DNA of 29,960 bases from positions 1-29,960 of IMG/VR virus record IMGVR_UViG_3300042298_000433. One strand, 5' to 3'. Each line of letters starts with the position of its first letter. The stretch's first letter is position 1. Shown here piece after piece: positions 9,765-26,049 of the stretch. The position numbers were made by a program, and so were the translations under genes. Source of the stretch: a virus. The notes under the pieces are model-generated. The model worked only from the letters and a program-made list of their open reading frames with translations. It searched no databases and had not been told where the DNA came from.

Positions 9765-9784
9765 TATAAACAAATTTATTAACA

Positions 9785-10054
9785 ATGGCAAAAGTAAAAG
9801 AAGAGCAGCTCTCAAAGGTTGTCGAACTCAAGCAGATGCAGGAGCAACTGACTCTTGAAGTAGGTTCACTCACAATGGCTAAGAAAGAAATTGACGAGCG
9901 ATTGGAAAAAGTATATCAACTGGTTAAAGAAACTGCCGAGCAGGTTCAAGTAATCGTTGAGGAAATCTCAAAAGAGTATGGCCCCGGCACACTGGATATT
10001 CAAACTGGAGAGTTTACTCCAGCGGAATCTCCTGATGCTGAGGTCGTTGAATAA
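9785..10054 (+). CDS. small acidic coiled-coil protein
   Basis: 89 residues. From residue 8 to 65 it is a continuous amphipathic helix with heptad spacing (VVELKQMQEQLTLEVGSL, then RLEKVYQLVKETAEQVQ), followed by a short acidic tail. No signal or membrane segment. A strong terminator closes the gene 22 bases downstream, so it is the last gene of its transcript, just before the lysis block. Role unknown; a fibre or assembly accessory is possible. Confidence 0.7.
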   Translation: MAKVKEEQLSKVVELKQMQEQLTLEVGSLTMAKKEIDERLEKVYQLVKETAEQVQVIVEEISKEYGPGTLDIQTGEFTPAESPDAEVVE

Positions 10055-10076
10055 AACAACATAAAGTGTCTAGAAG

Positions 10077-10100
10077 ACCCCGCTATTTGCGGGGTTTTTT
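10077..10100 (+). terminator. intrinsic terminator before lysis block
   Basis: Stem ACCCCGC (10077-10083) / GCGGGGT (10089-10095), loop TATTT, then a run of six T. Confidence 0.9.
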
Positions 10101-10139
10101 AGTAACTGATATTGTATATTAATATATACTTTATTCAAA

Positions 10140-10304
10140 ATGAAAGATACAACAGCCGTTGAAGTAGCGAAGCCTTGGCTCCTAACTGGTGGCTCATTTA
10201 TACTGGCAAACTTTAGTCAAGTGCTTGGCATCACAGCGATGCTGCTATCAATTGCCTATACCGCTTGGAAGTGGTACAGGGACATTAAGCGTGATGGATT
10301 TTAA
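10140..10304 (+). CDS. 54-residue membrane protein, holin candidate
   Basis: An ATG at 10140 opens 54 codons to a TAA at 10302-10304. Residues about 13-24 are hydrophobic and residues about 26-44 (FSQVLGITAMLLSIAYTAW) form a clear membrane helix, ended by the basic tail KWYRDIKRDGF. This size, topology and basic end fit small phage holins. It lies between a terminator and the endolysin and overlaps the next gene by 11 bases. No sequence family is proven; small membrane proteins of other function are possible. Confidence 0.65.
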   Translation: MKDTTAVEVAKPWLLTGGSFILANFSQVLGITAMLLSIAYTAWKWYRDIKRDGF

Positions 10305-10521
10305 GCCAATTATAGAGCGTTTATTTGTCAGTTGGAAGAGTACCCTGCTTGGGATGTCAATACTCTTTGTATGCTTCTTATTAGTGTTCCTAGACAAGGC
10401 ATCTCTCACCGAGGTGTCTACCTTTACGCTCGGTGGTTTTTACTTACTATTTTTAAAAGACGAAAATGGCAAAACAACAAATCGAAGAACGAAAGCCAAG
10501 GGCAAGGAAGAAGTTGGGTAG
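10294..10521 (+). CDS. 75-residue two-helix membrane protein, second holin or antiholin candidate
   Basis: The ATG at 10294 lies inside the 3' end of the 54-residue gene. The product has two hydrophobic stretches (about residues 15-33, STLLGMSILFVCFLLVF, and about 43-56, FTLGGFYLLFL) separated by an acidic turn, then a strongly basic tail (TTNRRTKAKGK). This is the class II holin layout. A longer in-frame reading upstream is possible but would overlap the first gene fully, so the ATG at 10294 is preferred. Which of the two membrane proteins is holin and which antiholin cannot be told. Confidence 0.65.
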   Translation: MDFKPIIERLFVSWKSTLLGMSILFVCFLLVFLDKASLTEVSTFTLGGFYLLFLKDENGKTTNRRTKAKGKEEVG

Positions 10522-11276: not shown

Positions 11277-11650
11277 TAACTGCTATATTCCTTTTTGGCG
11301 GATGTTCTGCGAAGTGGCACCTCAAACGTGCAATTGCAAAAGGGGCGAATGTACACGTTCAAAAATGGGACACGACAATAGTGACCAAGGAAAGAACACT
11401 AAGAGACACGGTGGAGATTCTAAGGGACACGACAATCATTCAAGACGGGGTGTCCGTTAATCTTCAGTACAAGGATAGATTGATTTATGTCGAGGCTAAA
11501 TGTCAACCAGACACTATTCCGGTGACAAAGTACATTACGAAAACTGTTTCGGTAGAAGAGAAGAAAGGTGATTATAGATTCTTCTGGCAGGTTATTTTTG
11601 CCGCATCTATTATTTATTTATTCTCACTCTTGGTTAGAACGAGGGAATAG
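11255..11650 (+). CDS. u-spanin-like lipoprotein with C-terminal membrane helix
   Basis: 131 residues from the ATG at 11255. The N-terminus is a lipoprotein signal: MRNLLILITAIFLF then the lipobox FGGC with Cys17. The middle is a soluble beta-rich region with repeated charged strands (TIVTKERTLRDTVEILRD). The C-terminus, about residues 109-127 (FFWQVIFAASIIYLFSLLV), is a membrane helix followed by RTRE. One protein anchored in both outer and inner membranes is the u-spanin design known from phage T1 gp11, which disrupts the outer membrane at lysis. The position right after the endolysin supports it. A TTG start 8 codons earlier is possible but would spoil the signal peptide. Confidence 0.75.
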   Translation: MRNLLILITAIFLFGGCSAKWHLKRAIAKGANVHVQKWDTTIVTKERTLRDTVEILRDTTIIQDGVSVNLQYKDRLIYVEAKCQPDTIPVTKYITKTVSVEEKKGDYRFFWQVIFAASIIYLFSLLVRTRE

Positions 11651-11660
11651 TGTATATTTG
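11630..11660 (+). promoter_or_regulatory. consensus-like promoter after the spanin gene
   Basis: TTG (11630-11632), 20-base spacer, TATATTTG (11653-11660). The -7 box starts 3 bases after the spanin stop, and no + strand gene follows before a terminator, so it would make only a short RNA. Confidence 0.6.
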
Positions 11661-11662
11661 TT

Positions 11663-11733
11663 CATCGAGAGTGGTTACTCGATGTTGCTTTCATTGTTTT
11701 TTGGTAGAGAGGGGACTTCGGTCCCCTCTTTTT
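11663..11733 (+). ncRNA. candidate small RNA of about 70 nt
   Basis: Starts 2-3 bases after a TATATTTG box. The 5' end folds into a 7-bp hairpin (CATCGAG 11663-11669 / CTCGATG 11678-11684). A U-rich linker and then a strong terminator hairpin follow. There is no convincing ORF. Promoter, 5' hairpin and terminator in 100 bases is the layout of a bacterial small RNA. Alternatively it is only a transcription barrier between converging operons. No known family recognised. Confidence 0.4.
11708..11733 (+). terminator. intrinsic terminator with TTCG loop, end of the late lysis block
   Basis: Nine-base-pair stem AGAGGGGAC (11708-11716) / GTCCCCTCT (11721-11729), loop TTCG, then T-run. The reverse strand lacks a T-run, so it works for + strand transcripts. 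The T-run touches the 3' end of the last - strand gene. Confidence 0.9.
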
Positions 11734-15321: not shown

Positions 15322-15579
15322 TTACTTATTTCTCTTTCCAAGTAATTCGGACTTGGTTATTTCCGCTAGGCGAAAGTCCTTAACTTTTGTGCTGTCTTTT
15401 ACTCCAAGCCGGGCCATACTCATACCCATTGCAATTATGTCCTTGTTGATTTGTTCTAGCTCGCTAGCATAGGACATAATCCAACCTTTCTTGATGACGT
15501 TGTGGTACCCACTGCCAATCTTTTTCTTCCAAGTGAATACACCCTCGGTGTACCAAATGTCGTCGTTAATTTCTTCCAT
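15322..15579 (-). CDS. unknown 85-residue protein
   Basis: Basic and helical, with three aromatic-rich strands at the start (DIWYTEGVFTWKKKIGSGYH) and a helix (ASELEQINKDIIAMGMSMAR). No domain recognised. It lies between SSB-like and helicase genes and follows a terminator hairpin, so its level may depend on read-through. A helicase-loader role is possible from position only. Confidence 0.6.
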   Translation of the reverse strand: MEEINDDIWYTEGVFTWKKKIGSGYHNVIKKGWIMSYASELEQINKDIIAMGMSMARLGVKDSTKVKDFRLAEITKSELLGKRNK

Positions 15580-18749: not shown

Positions 18750-18821
18750 TAGCTCCGCCCAGAATCGAACTGGGAACCAGTGCTTAGAAGGCACTTGTTA
18801 TATCCGTTTAACTACGGAGCC
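18750..18821 (-). tRNA. tRNA-Arg(UCU)
   Basis: Read on the - strand: acceptor stem GGCTCCG / CGGAGCT, D-stem GTTA / TAAC, anticodon stem AGTGC / GCACT with loop CTTCTAA (anticodon TCT), T-stem CCCAG / CTGGG with loop TTCGATT, discriminator A. The CCA end is not encoded. It reads AGA codons; phages often carry tRNAs for codons common in their genes and rare in the host, which cannot be tested here. Confidence 0.95.
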
Positions 18822-22946: not shown

Positions 22947-23246
22947 TTATTTGTTATTGTTGGTTAGAAATTGTTGCGCTTTATTTCTGTATGCCTGCAT
23001 TCTTTCGTTCTCCGCCCTGCGTTGCTTTGCGTTGGTTGGCTTAGCGTGTGCAATCTGTAAAAGCGTTCCCATGTCCGTATCCGGAGCGCAATTGTTATAT
23101 GCTTTCTTGTGTGCCTTTCCCGTGCGTGCGCTCTTTTTTGTATCCTGTGGTGAGCGCATAATTTTACCGCATATAGCGGAACTCTTAGCGTTGAACATGG
23201 TAGCACCGACCTTGCGGCATTCCCATTGAAATGAAGTACCTTGCAT
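22947..23246 (-). CDS. unknown 99-residue basic protein, first gene of the array
   Basis: MQGTSFQWECRKVGATMFNAKS, then a basic helical half (AKPTNAKQRRAENERMQAYR). It carries the leader AAAAACCAACACAATG and is the first ORF after the structured region. Overlapping ORFs in other frames on both strands are shadows. Low-complexity basic character suggests nucleic-acid binding, unproven. Confidence 0.55.
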   Translation of the reverse strand: MQGTSFQWECRKVGATMFNAKSSAICGKIMRSPQDTKKSARTGKAHKKAYNNCAPDTDMGTLLQIAHAKPTNAKQRRAENERMQAYRNKAQQFLTNNNK

Positions 23247-23268
23247 TGTGTTGGTTTTTATTTAGTGA

Positions 23269-23332
23269 GCGTGTATCGGTACGACCGATATATACGTTAT
23301 TCATCCCGTATATGTAACCCCGTTACACACGC
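23269..23332 (-). other. perfect four-way-junction fold, 64 nt
   Basis: In + coordinates: closing stem GCGTGT (23269-23274) / ACACGC (23327-23332); arm 1 ATCGGT/ACCGAT (23275-23280, 23284-23289, loop ACG); arm 2 ATATACG/CGTATAT (23290-23296, 23307-23313, 10-base loop); arm 3 GTAAC/GTTAC (23314-23318, 23322-23326, loop CCC). Every base is either paired or in a hairpin loop, and none is unpaired at the junction. On the - strand a seventh closing pair (G-U) forms. It lacks T-loop and D-loop bases, so it is not a tRNA. It lies 23 bases before the start of the 99-residue gene. Confidence 0.75.
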
Positions 23333-23339
23333 CCTATTT

Positions 23340-23674
23340 TCTTAGGTGGGCAATCTTTGAGAGGTTGCAAAAGTGGTAGGAAAATTTACACCTTTCGTCT
23401 CTATGCCCTTGCTTTACCCTCGGTTCCCCATGTCCTACCATGGTTCCCCTTCGCTTCCGCCACGCTTCCTGTGTGGGTAAAGTTTGCCTAATATCGCCAC
23501 CTTTTCGCCAAATTGCCTTTCGGGTAATTCGGTGGGGACTTTCGGACCAAAATAAGAAAAGAACGTCGTGACGAATAGTTAAGGCAATAACTATTCTCTG
23601 CAAAGGTGTCTTTACATTTCTCTGGCTCATCGCCAGCAGAACGGAGTGTCAACTACTTTGTTTCTATCACTACT
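23340..23674 (-). ncRNA. candidate structured RNA (leader or independent)
   Basis: About 330 bases without a credible gene, downstream of a consensus promoter. Pairings in + coordinates: 9-bp hairpin 23573-23581/23588-23596; 5-bp hairpin 23622-23626/23632-23636; 8-bp long-range 23388-23395/23602-23609; 8-bp 23412-23419/23475-23482, which encloses hairpin 23428-23432/23439-23443, whose loop can pair with 23374-23381 (pseudoknot-like); nested stems at 23497-23535 with a C-GAAA-G tetraloop. CGAAAG occurs three times on the - strand. GGGGAACC occurs twice, 20 bases apart, flanking the central hairpin. I recognise no known RNA class; a long 5' leader of the early operon is the alternative. Confidence 0.5.
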
Positions 23675-23705
23675 CAAAGATACGAAAGTTTTCTACACTA
23701 CCAAA
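23675..23705 (-). promoter_or_regulatory. consensus promoter of the structured RNA and early array
   Basis: On the - strand TTTG (23705-23702), 19-base spacer, TATCTTTG (23682-23675). Both boxes match the Bacteroidota consensus. Transcription should start near 23668-23672. Confidence 0.75.
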
Positions 23706-23719
23706 CAATATGTAGAAAA
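23689..23719. repeat. 9-bp inverted repeat around the -33 box
   Basis: TTTTCTACA (23689-23697) and TGTAGAAAA (23711-23719), 13-base spacer holding the -33 box. This is an operator-like position for a dimeric repressor. CCAAACAATATGT beside it (23701-23713) has a near copy at 23761-23773 (11 of 13 bases). Confidence 0.6.
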
Positions 23720-23914
23720 GTTTTATCTTTTTTTTTGCACCTGTCAAAAATAGTTACCCACCAAACATTTTGTGTTAAATCTTTTGATCGTGACCGCAAA
23801 CTGTGAGAGGATTTGTTAAGTCTGTCCACTCTATACGGGGGGAATTGTGAAAGACAAATTAAAACCAAATAAATGCAACTTAATTATTTTAATTATTTTG
23901 TATATAATTAAATT
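23720..23914. other. intergenic control region, no gene seen
   Basis: 195 bases between the early promoter and the nonamer array. ORFs here are short, overlap regulatory repeats and lack coding character. A T-run (23724-23736) and TATTTTTG on the - strand (23752-23745, no -33 partner) are the only other signals seen. Confidence 0.6.
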
Positions 23915-24014
23915 ATAATGTAGAACTAATTATAATGTAAGTACATTAGTATAATGTAATACGCTTACGCTATATGTATAATGTATCTACATCTTATGAT
24001 GTAATTACATTATA
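23915..24014. repeat. five-copy TATAATGTA nonamer array
   Basis: Direct copies at 23915-23923, 23932-23940, 23950-23958 and 23977-23985, plus an inverted copy (TACATTATA) at 24006-24014. Start spacings are 17, 18, 27 and 29. A TACATTA half site at 23942-23948 makes an inverted pair with the second copy around one G. The array ends 15 bases before the -33 box of the late promoter. Confidence 0.8.
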
Positions 24015-24029
24015 CGCAGACACTTTGAA

Positions 24030-24060
24030 TTTGCTACATTCACTTTATTGTGTATATTTG
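24030..24060 (+). promoter_or_regulatory. consensus promoter of the packaging/tail operon
   Basis: TTTG (24030-24033), 19-base spacer, TATATTTG (24053-24060), then TGT and the ATG at 24064, so the transcript should be leaderless or nearly so. It lies directly downstream of the nonamer array. Confidence 0.75.
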
Positions 24061-24063
24061 TGT

Positions 24064-24336
24064 ATGGATTACAATTTGTATTTGAAGATTGCTGGTACGC
24101 AGATAATTCCTGATGGTATGCAGCAAGAAGTATTCGACGCTCACAACTCTTTGATTGGTGAGAGTAAGTTTGTGTATAAGAAGGAGGACCGCCACACCTA
24201 CTGCTCTTCGTGTAAGGCTAGAGTGATGTCTAATCTATGGAAGCACTACCACTACGAGTATCAAGAGAAGTTTGACAGCTTGGAGTTCACTGGAAACCTT
24301 GGTATCAATCAGATGCCGTTATACAGAATGAAGTGA
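24064..24336 (+). CDS. unknown 90-residue protein, first gene of the packaging operon
   Basis: MDYNLYLKIAGTQIIPDG, then FVYKKEDRHTYCSSCKARV (CxxC, possibly with nearby His as a zinc site) and WKHYHYEYQEKF. A longer reading from 23974 would run through the nonamer array and promoter and is rejected. A later ATG at codon 19 is possible if the transcript starts downstream. Its TGA shares its last base with the terminase small subunit ATG (TGATG). A role in packaging regulation is possible from position only. Confidence 0.65.
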   Translation: MDYNLYLKIAGTQIIPDGMQQEVFDAHNSLIGESKFVYKKEDRHTYCSSCKARVMSNLWKHYHYEYQEKFDSLEFTGNLGINQMPLYRMK

Positions 24337-24803
24337 TGGCTGGCGCAGTTAGGGACGAGAGGAACAACGTGGTCAAGGGCCACGGTGCGCAGTTGACTAC
24401 ACTTCAAGAGAGCTTCTTGCAGCGTCTACGGGAGGAAGGTGTCCACAGGCAATCTAAGATAGCAAAGGAGCTTAATTACACGAGTTACTATCGTGATAAG
24501 AATAACTACGGCACAGAGTTCTATAAGCAGCTTAGACAGGCTGTAGATGACTTCAGACAGAACATCGCAGTTGCTAAGGGTACGAACCTAGACGCTTTGG
24601 TTGTAATGCGTGATGAGTCTATTGCTGTTGGTGATTACAAGGCAGCAATGGAAGCCATCAAGATCATTAACGATATGCAGGGTCACAAGGCTCCTACGCA
24701 GGTGACTAAGACAAACATCGATGTCAAGGCTACTATTGATCTCACTGCTCCGGTGGAGGACGATATGGGCTACATTGATATAACGCCAGAGGATGGAGAT
24801 TAA
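24336..24803 (+). CDS. terS: terminase small subunit
   Basis: 155 residues from the ATG at 24336 (a GTG one codon earlier also reads). The N-terminal part is a helix-turn-helix-like segment (TLQESFLQRLREEGVHRQSKIAKELNYTSYY), followed by a helical middle (EFYKQLRQAVDDFRQNIAVAKGTNLDALVVM) and an acidic tail. This layout and position directly before the large subunit are typical of the protein that selects phage DNA for packaging. The stop overlaps the large-subunit start by 11 bases. The sequence alone would not prove it. Confidence 0.75.
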   Translation: MAGAVRDERNNVVKGHGAQLTTLQESFLQRLREEGVHRQSKIAKELNYTSYYRDKNNYGTEFYKQLRQAVDDFRQNIAVAKGTNLDALVVMRDESIAVGDYKAAMEAIKIINDMQGHKAPTQVTKTNIDVKATIDLTAPVEDDMGYIDITPEDGD

Positions 24804-26049
24804 GTTATACAAGCCCACGGCCCCACAGGTGGAGTTTTACAAGTTGGTAAACGAAAAAAAGCCGTTTATCAGTTTGATCGTTGCTGGTCGCCAAACGGGT
24901 AAGTCGTTCTTTATGATGAACGATGCGCTGTACCGCAGCCTAAACAACAAAAAACATAGGTGCTTTTGGGTGAGTCCTATTCAAGACCAAGCCAACAAGG
25001 TGATGAAGGACATCGAAGCGATGTTTATCAACCACCAAGAGTTGTTTGGTCAGATCGTAAAACGCTTTGACAGAAAGAACAATGAAGTCTATTTTTACAA
25101 CGGCTCGTTTATCAAGTTTCGTTCAGCGGATTCGGGCGACAATCTTCGTGGTGCTACACTGGATTACATCTACATTGACGAGGCTGCCTATATGAACATT
25201 GAGTTCATCAACGAAGTTCTGCTTCCTATGGTGACTCGCACAGGTGGGCGGGTGTGTATGGCCTCTACCTTCAATGGCAAAAACTGGTTCTGGGACAAGT
25301 ACAATGATGGTATTAAAGAAGAAAACGCCGAAGAAGTGATTTCCATTAAAAAAACCTACTTGGACTTGAATGACCCCGCTGTCGACAAGACCGTTTCTGG
25401 CATCCGCAAGTCTATGACAAAATCTCAGTTCGATCAAGAGTTCTTGTGTCGCCCTGTAGCACACGATGCTTTGTTTCAAAATATCGAGGACTGCATCGCC
25501 CAAACCACCCCGGACGATGTAGAGAGAACTTATCTTGGGATGGACATCGGTGTGGCGCAAGATTACACGGTGCTTACGGCACTAGATCAGAACTATAACA
25601 TCATCGACATCGATAGGTTTCACTACCGGATGGAGGGGATGAACAATCACGAGTTTAAACAAAGAATTAAAGACTTCTACCATAAGTGGAACAATGACAA
25701 CAAGTTAGCCGCTTGTTACTTTGAAATCAACAATAACAACTTGCTGTTTGAAGAACTTTCTGACGACGAGCAATTGCACAAATTGGTTCCGTTTCAGACC
25801 ACCGCCAACACAAAGCCGGAAATTATCCGCAACTTGATACGTCTGTTTGACAATAAAGAAATCAGCATACCAAACAACGACAACCTAATTAGGGAATTGT
25901 ACGACTTCAAGTCAAAGCGCAATCCAGTTACCGGGAATATGCAATTCTCAAACACGGATGGAAAGCACGACGATATGGTAATGTCACTGGCTATTGCCGC
26001 TTGGTGCTGCAAGGAAGAGCAGGATGGTGGAATAACAATGTTCCTATGA
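24793..26049 (+). CDS. terL: terminase large subunit
   Basis: 418 residues. ATPase: Walker A AGRQTGKS (31-38), Walker B YIYIDEAA (about 125-132) and a coupling segment (VCMASTFNG, 154-162). Nuclease: GMDIGVAQD with Asp251, YFEINNNN with Glu311, and GKHDDMVMSLA with Asp393/Asp394, the RNase H-like triad. It powers DNA entry through the portal and cuts the concatemer. The next gene starts inside its stop (ATGA). The portal is not next to it but lies about 21 kb to the left in this window. Confidence 0.96.
   Translation: MEIKLYKPTAPQVEFYKLVNEKKPFISLIVAGRQTGKSFFMMNDALYRSLNNKKHRCFWVSPIQDQANKVMKDIEAMFINHQELFGQIVKRFDRKNNEVYFYNGSFIKFRSADSGDNLRGATLDYIYIDEAAYMNIEFINEVLLPMVTRTGGRVCMASTFNGKNWFWDKYNDGIKEENAEEVISIKKTYLDLNDPAVDKTVSGIRKSMTKSQFDQEFLCRPVAHDALFQNIEDCIAQTTPDDVERTYLGMDIGVAQDYTVLTALDQNYNIIDIDRFHYRMEGMNNHEFKQRIKDFYHKWNNDNKLAACYFEINNNNLLFEELSDDEQLHKLVPFQTTANTKPEIIRNLIRLFDNKEISIPNNDNLIRELYDFKSKRNPVTGNMQFSNTDGKHDDMVMSLAIAAWCCKEEQDGGITMFL

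Follow-up and report, generated by a model that had tools for sequence, protein, structure and literature searches.

The region that opens the early operon of this phage specifies a real, probably functional structured RNA with no known class and no known homolog. We regard it as quite possible, and tentatively as the best explanation, that this RNA is an untranslated, highly structured, cis-acting 5' leader of the early-operon mRNA, approximately 400 nt in length (roughly 23669-23247, minus strand). The observations behind this reading are a promoter motif, folding statistics that indicate an excess of local structure, the absence of a coding signal, the position of the RNA, and the recurrence of structured RNAs in this operon among related phages, and because of these a structured untranslated RNA at this location is supported.

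Genome setting and promoter

The window, meaning the whole stretch of DNA that was analyzed, corresponds to an IMG/VR virus record 29,960 bases long. The terminase large subunit (TerL; Pfam Terminase_6N) is encoded on the plus strand at 24793-26049, and a long early operon of 11.7 kb is encoded on the minus strand from ~23246 to 11975, which includes gp88, an Erf-like annealing protein, a PDDEXK nuclease, a DnaB-like helicase, and a RusA-like resolvase. The first gene of this operon (22947-23246, minus strand, AUG at 23246) encodes a basic protein of 99 amino acids that contains TNAKQRRAENERMQAYRNKA; no family match to this protein was found, nor any relative in viral contigs. Phages with related TerL proteins were collected at about 105 loci (denoted L003, L005, and so on), some of which are duplicates, with TerL sequences 65-73% identical to that of the window in a ten-sequence alignment. 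Relatives of TerL in bacterial genomes were distant only (21-29%).

A promoter of the form TTTG-N19-TATCTTTG had been recognized in a sequence-only reading of the window, and it was borne out as a strict match to the consensus at 23705-23675 on the minus strand. The minus strand of the 30 kb contained four strict matches, compared to 0.5 expected per strand, and this one is located between genes. Promoters of this Bacteroidota type (TTTG-N19-TAnnTTTG) presumably point to a Bacteroidota host, and the phage is a probable Bacteroidota phage. The promoter also resembles GTTTGGTAGT...TATCTTT, which is found upstream of the early genes in L006 and L060. From the promoter to the next credible start codon on the minus strand, at 23246, there are ~430 nt.

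The only strict Bacteroidota promoter on the plus strand of the window (24030-24064) stops 4 nt short of an internal ATG, at 24064, that is in frame within the open reading frame at 23974-24336, so 24064 is probably where that gene starts. In addition, TTCCCCCCGTATAGAGTGGACAGACTTAA-N19-CGGTCA on the minus strand at 23796-23850 is the window's instance of a DNA element, TTCCCCCCGCTCCGAGNGGYTAGCTTA-N~20-CGGTCA, that was kept ~1,000-1,450 bp before terL in nearly all of the TerL relatives. This element could be a cos/pac site or a site of terminase recognition, or it could be an operator.

Predicted folding of the proposed leader RNA

Several local domains were predicted on the minus strand of this region. 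The 5' domain (23560-23675; z -3.30, with 2 of 200 shuffles as stable) is made up of three hairpins, including a 9-bp hairpin (23596-23588 with 23581-23573, pairing probability about 1). The second domain (23484-23545), which is weakly supported (z -1.26), contains hairpins capped by GAAA, and CGAAAG loops were located at 23544, 23522, and 23397. In the central domain (23412-23482; z -3.71, 0 of 200 shuffles) an 8-bp stem, CUUUACCC/GGGUAAAG (23482-23475 with 23419-23412, probability about 0.93), encloses hairpins, and two copies of GGGGAACC (23449-23442 and 23429-23422) flank a CCAUG/CAUGG hairpin. The 9-bp hairpin, the enclosing stem, the loops, and the duplication had all been described from the sequence and are present as described. 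Two other pairings from the same description stood only in part. The 8-mers of a possible long-range stem (23609-23602 with 23395-23388) are perfectly complementary, but the probability of this stem in the nested fold is about 0 because a local hairpin that competes with it wins. Likewise, the loop sequence UGGUAGGA is perfectly complementary to the distant 8-mer UCCUACCA (23440-23433 with 23381-23374) and might form a pseudoknot, but this pairing overlaps the stem of the central hairpin, and a pseudoknot lies beyond nested-fold scoring.

The structure had been thought to end at 23340, whereas it continues beyond that position in a predicted four-way junction of 26 pairs (23334-23267, minus strand; z -3.82, 0 of 200 shuffles). 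The outer stem of the junction (23334-23327 with 23274-23267) encloses three arms at 23326-23314, 23313-23290, and 23289-23275, and with each arm in parentheses the junction reads GGGCGUGU (GUAAC GGG GUUAC) (AUAUACG GGAUGAAUAA CGUAUAU) (AUCGGU CGU ACCGAU) ACACGCUC, leaving zero unpaired bases at the junction itself. Downstream of it come ACUAA and, 20 nt after the stem, the start codon (AUG) of the 99-aa gene. Because the outer stem competes with pairing of the 5' end in the full-length fold (probability about 0.05), the junction may form in only part of the molecules, or may form first during transcription.

The domains with z values of -3.3 (23675-23560), -3.7 (23484-23410), and -3.8 (23338-23255) were picked after the fact, and therefore all 80-nt windows of the record were scanned. 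The minus strand of 23255-23675 had the strongest summed local folding of the ~1,000 segments of the window, with a close runner-up (-12.6 compared to -12.4) and a leader mean z that was only in the top 6%. Five perfect helices of at least 8 bp were found, compared to 0.69 +/- 0.82 in shuffled sequences, and none of 300 shuffles reached that number. The proposal that the pairing is more ordered than a plain spacer would need is supported by the excess of helices and the top-ranked local folding. The 346-nt region folded as one piece was only mildly unusual (z -1.9). Segments that folded nearly as strongly were located at 9781-10400 on the plus strand, the runner-up in the scan, and at 11461-11700 on the minus strand; the former contains a terminator-like GACCCCGCTATTTGCGGGGTTTTTT near 10078.

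Searches for a known class or homolog

No class had been recognized from the sequence, and the covariance search agreed. The sole match to the Rfam 15 models at gathering thresholds in the window was a tRNA (18750-18821), and the Rfam models, including GOLLD, ROOL, 6S-flavo, ribozymes, and riboswitches, gave zero matches up to E 5 in 23200-23800. GOLLD and ROOL are, like the window RNA, large structured phage RNAs of unknown function, but they are bigger and have Rfam models. They are often found near tRNA islands (PMC12286853).

No homolog of the window RNA was found in phage records with blastn at E 1e-5 or E 10, and no copy was found in the related loci with blastn and nhmmer. In about 60 loci of related phages, sequence searches and two structure models revealed no relative of it, and covariance models built on either the 3' junction or the central domain identified no homolog. 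The pattern of duplicated GGGGAACC was matched at 52 loci in IMG/VR, none of them related.

Structured RNAs in related phages

The TerL relatives share the layout of the window, and on the early-operon strand, too, they encode noncoding RNAs of other kinds. In L005 there were three Pistol ribozymes (RF02679; 5241-5175, 4744-4682, and 4355-4290, minus strand) between consecutive early genes, ending 20-21 nt before the next ATG; Pistol was absent from the window in the identical search. Pistol RNAs have been found near phage genes (PMC4604425).

A newly recognized, undescribed covarying RNA was also identified in these phages. This three-way-junction-CUAA element consists of a closing stem, a hairpin, a second hairpin with the loop AGCGAUA, and the other side of the stem, followed by CUAA, and it is found on the minus strand in L018 (4246, 3885, and 3448), L109 (1216 and 775), L070 (1204), L016 (5781), L025 (5818), L100 (1306), and L108 (1257). 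The distance to the start codon was 20-37 nt in L016, L018, L025, L070, L100, and L109, while L108 has a GTG or an unassigned start codon. A covariance model (R1) built from six copies identified three further copies (E 7e-6 to 0.01). In the nine-row alignment, 10 of the 12 pairs had double changes (0 of 500 shuffles), and 94% of the cells paired, whereas the shuffles reached 70% and the slid controls 33-52%. The structure had been used to fit the alignment, but the slid controls were still far lower. There was no Rfam family that matched this element. Its pattern, which was one base too long as searched in IMG/VR, matched a single unrelated contig, and a general search for a stem, then CTAA, then ATG showed no enrichment over other tetramers.

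A second undescribed RNA family, with hairpins, among them a GUGGNGACCAC hairpin, and with a long stem in which compensatory changes are seen, was found on the minus strand in L003, L006, L060, and L111 and in L043, L050, and L069. It is located directly after a gene for a small Arg-rich protein, near gp88 (for example, L050:1810-1615). A wider search with the D/E RNA pattern showed no broader distribution, as its new matches were coding sequence or a near-duplicate of L069. L025, L100, and L108 have an RNA of ~350 nt between early genes with 22 pairs changed on both sides, a count from three sequences only, and L005, L016, L070, and L109 have GC-rich leaders of 450-500 nt after the promoter.

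Two other sequence features were observed near the early promoters of these phages. CTTTGA, a candidate boxA, is present at the start of the leader in L025, L100, and L005 and overlaps the promoter -7 motif in several cases. Recurring imperfect inverted repeats, CTAACT..CTGATAATCA..AGTTAG, resembling iterons or operators, are found upstream of the early promoter in L016 (6464-6382), L070 (1880-1714), L109 (1911), L103, L106, and L041.

The four-way junction of the window can be compared to these elements. It is similar to the Pistol ribozymes of L005 in that both are in the same phage group, on the early strand, and end 20 nt (window) or 20-21 nt (L005) before a start codon, but the window has no Pistol match or core, and the arms of its junction are perfectly paired. 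With the three-way-junction-CUAA element it shares a closing stem, a multi-helix junction, and CUAA followed by AUG (in the window, ACUAA and 20 nt), and the second element of L109 has both the 20-nt spacing and the ACUAA tail. However, the window junction is four-way and has no AGCGAUA loop. Model R1 did not match it, the best regional score being 5.1 bits elsewhere in the region, and the likeness is therefore limited to position and the 3' tail. The window junction occupies the same place as the elements of the relatives, and membership in their class is not claimed.

Alternative explanations

It is quite improbable that the region is a plain AT/GC-biased spacer in which the structure arose by chance. 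The modest z for the region as a whole and the z values below -4 reached by 200-nt windows elsewhere in the phage are consistent with such a spacer, but the long-helix count was unmatched in the shuffles, each of three separate domains was more stable than 198-200 of the 200 shuffles, and so long a spacer would be costly for a compact phage. It is highly unlikely that the first early gene is instead a basic 98-aa protein encoded at 23630-23334 and that the pairings are incidental. This 98-codon ATG frame on the minus strand had been overlooked when ~330 nt were described as lacking a credible gene, and an ATG frame of at least 98 codons occurred on the minus strand in only 0.25% of shuffled versions. 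Nevertheless its codon score (-0.134) was below that of every gene in the window (lowest -0.015) and resembled those of spurious or non-coding frames. No family and no homolog of significant extent were found for it, the lone tblastn match spanning 16 residues, and a peptide-pattern search with it returned nothing. The frame was rejected as a gene on its codon usage and absent homologs, and the description of a region with no credible gene stands, extended to ~400 nt.

The main rival to the leader reading is that the RNA is a processive-antitermination element in the style of HK022 put or lambda nut, in which the nascent RNA, alone or with the basic 99-aa protein, would bind polymerase and allow it to read through terminators of the 11.7-kb operon, which we judge possible but unlikely. 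As in those systems, a structured RNA separates a phage's early promoter from its early genes, here directly downstream of the promoter, and there is a strong intrinsic terminator, GAGGGGGACTTGTTCCCCCTCTTTTTTT (15610-15583, minus strand), midway through the operon and a few nt ahead of an ATG at 15579, with no strict promoter close downstream. The first gene also encodes an Arg/Lys-rich stretch, NAKQRRAENERMQAYRNKA, which we take to be reminiscent of N proteins, and in D/E-type relatives the RNA comes after a gene for a small Arg-rich protein. However, the 99-aa protein had no detectable homology to those Arg-rich proteins in a profile comparison (probability 0.4%), and this relationship was rejected. 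HK022 put requires RNA only (PMC9378689), but it is far shorter and the host type differs, and no boxA/boxB-like element or put-like hairpins were recognized in the window. Furthermore, only one such terminator was found in the operon, and none in L003, L014, L016, L018, L024, or L025. It is unlikely as well that the RNA is a trans-acting phage noncoding RNA processed out of the early transcript, such as a regulator or a decoy for host factors or defenses. A trans-acting RNA would fit the size and multi-domain fold, as well as the noncoding RNAs, differing in sequence, that recur at about this location in related phages. It would also fit the Pistol ribozymes of L005, which indicate that cleavage between genes can take place in the early transcripts of this group. 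In contrast, the window RNA has no terminator or 3' end of its own and continues into the first gene with a spacing of 20 nt only, and no target was identified. The sequence-only reading had left open whether this is a phage ncRNA or a regulatory leader; a leader fits better than a free-standing ncRNA because no terminator was seen separating the RNA from the 99-aa gene and because the 3' junction ends 20 nt ahead of the AUG, much as the Pistol ribozymes and the three-way-junction-CUAA element precede start codons in the relatives.

Proposed function and significance

Under the leader reading, a transcript would begin at the Bacteroidota-type promoter, fold into several local domains, and close with the four-way junction just before the first start codon, where the relatives place a three-way-junction-CUAA element or a Pistol ribozyme. 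The leader would then act in cis after transcription, either by setting or shielding the 5' end of the early mRNA or by gating translation of the first gene, and its 3' junction would be the part that controls the 5' end, stability, or translation. Here transcription, cis action, processing, and what the structure does are all inferred, and the role of the leader is probably in mRNA processing, stability, or translation. An improbable extension of this model is that the Pistol ribozyme, the three-way-junction-CUAA element, and the four-way junction of the window are interchangeable RNA-processing elements between early genes, with Pistol in one lineage and the three-way junction in others, the latter two of the three being undescribed self-cleaving ribozymes or signals for host RNases, and that they would cut just before each start codon and free the structured RNA upstream.

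If real, this would be an undescribed leader RNA, and with its relatives it would make up a set of structured RNAs, quick to change, in the early operons of a group of environmental phages. With its clear covariation and its Pistol-like sites, the three-way-junction-CUAA element is a direct and inexpensive test case for a new self-cleaving or processing RNA. The pattern across the relatives is of greater interest than the window sequence by itself. The folded RNAs in comparable places in related phages suggest that this group manages its early messages with RNA structures.
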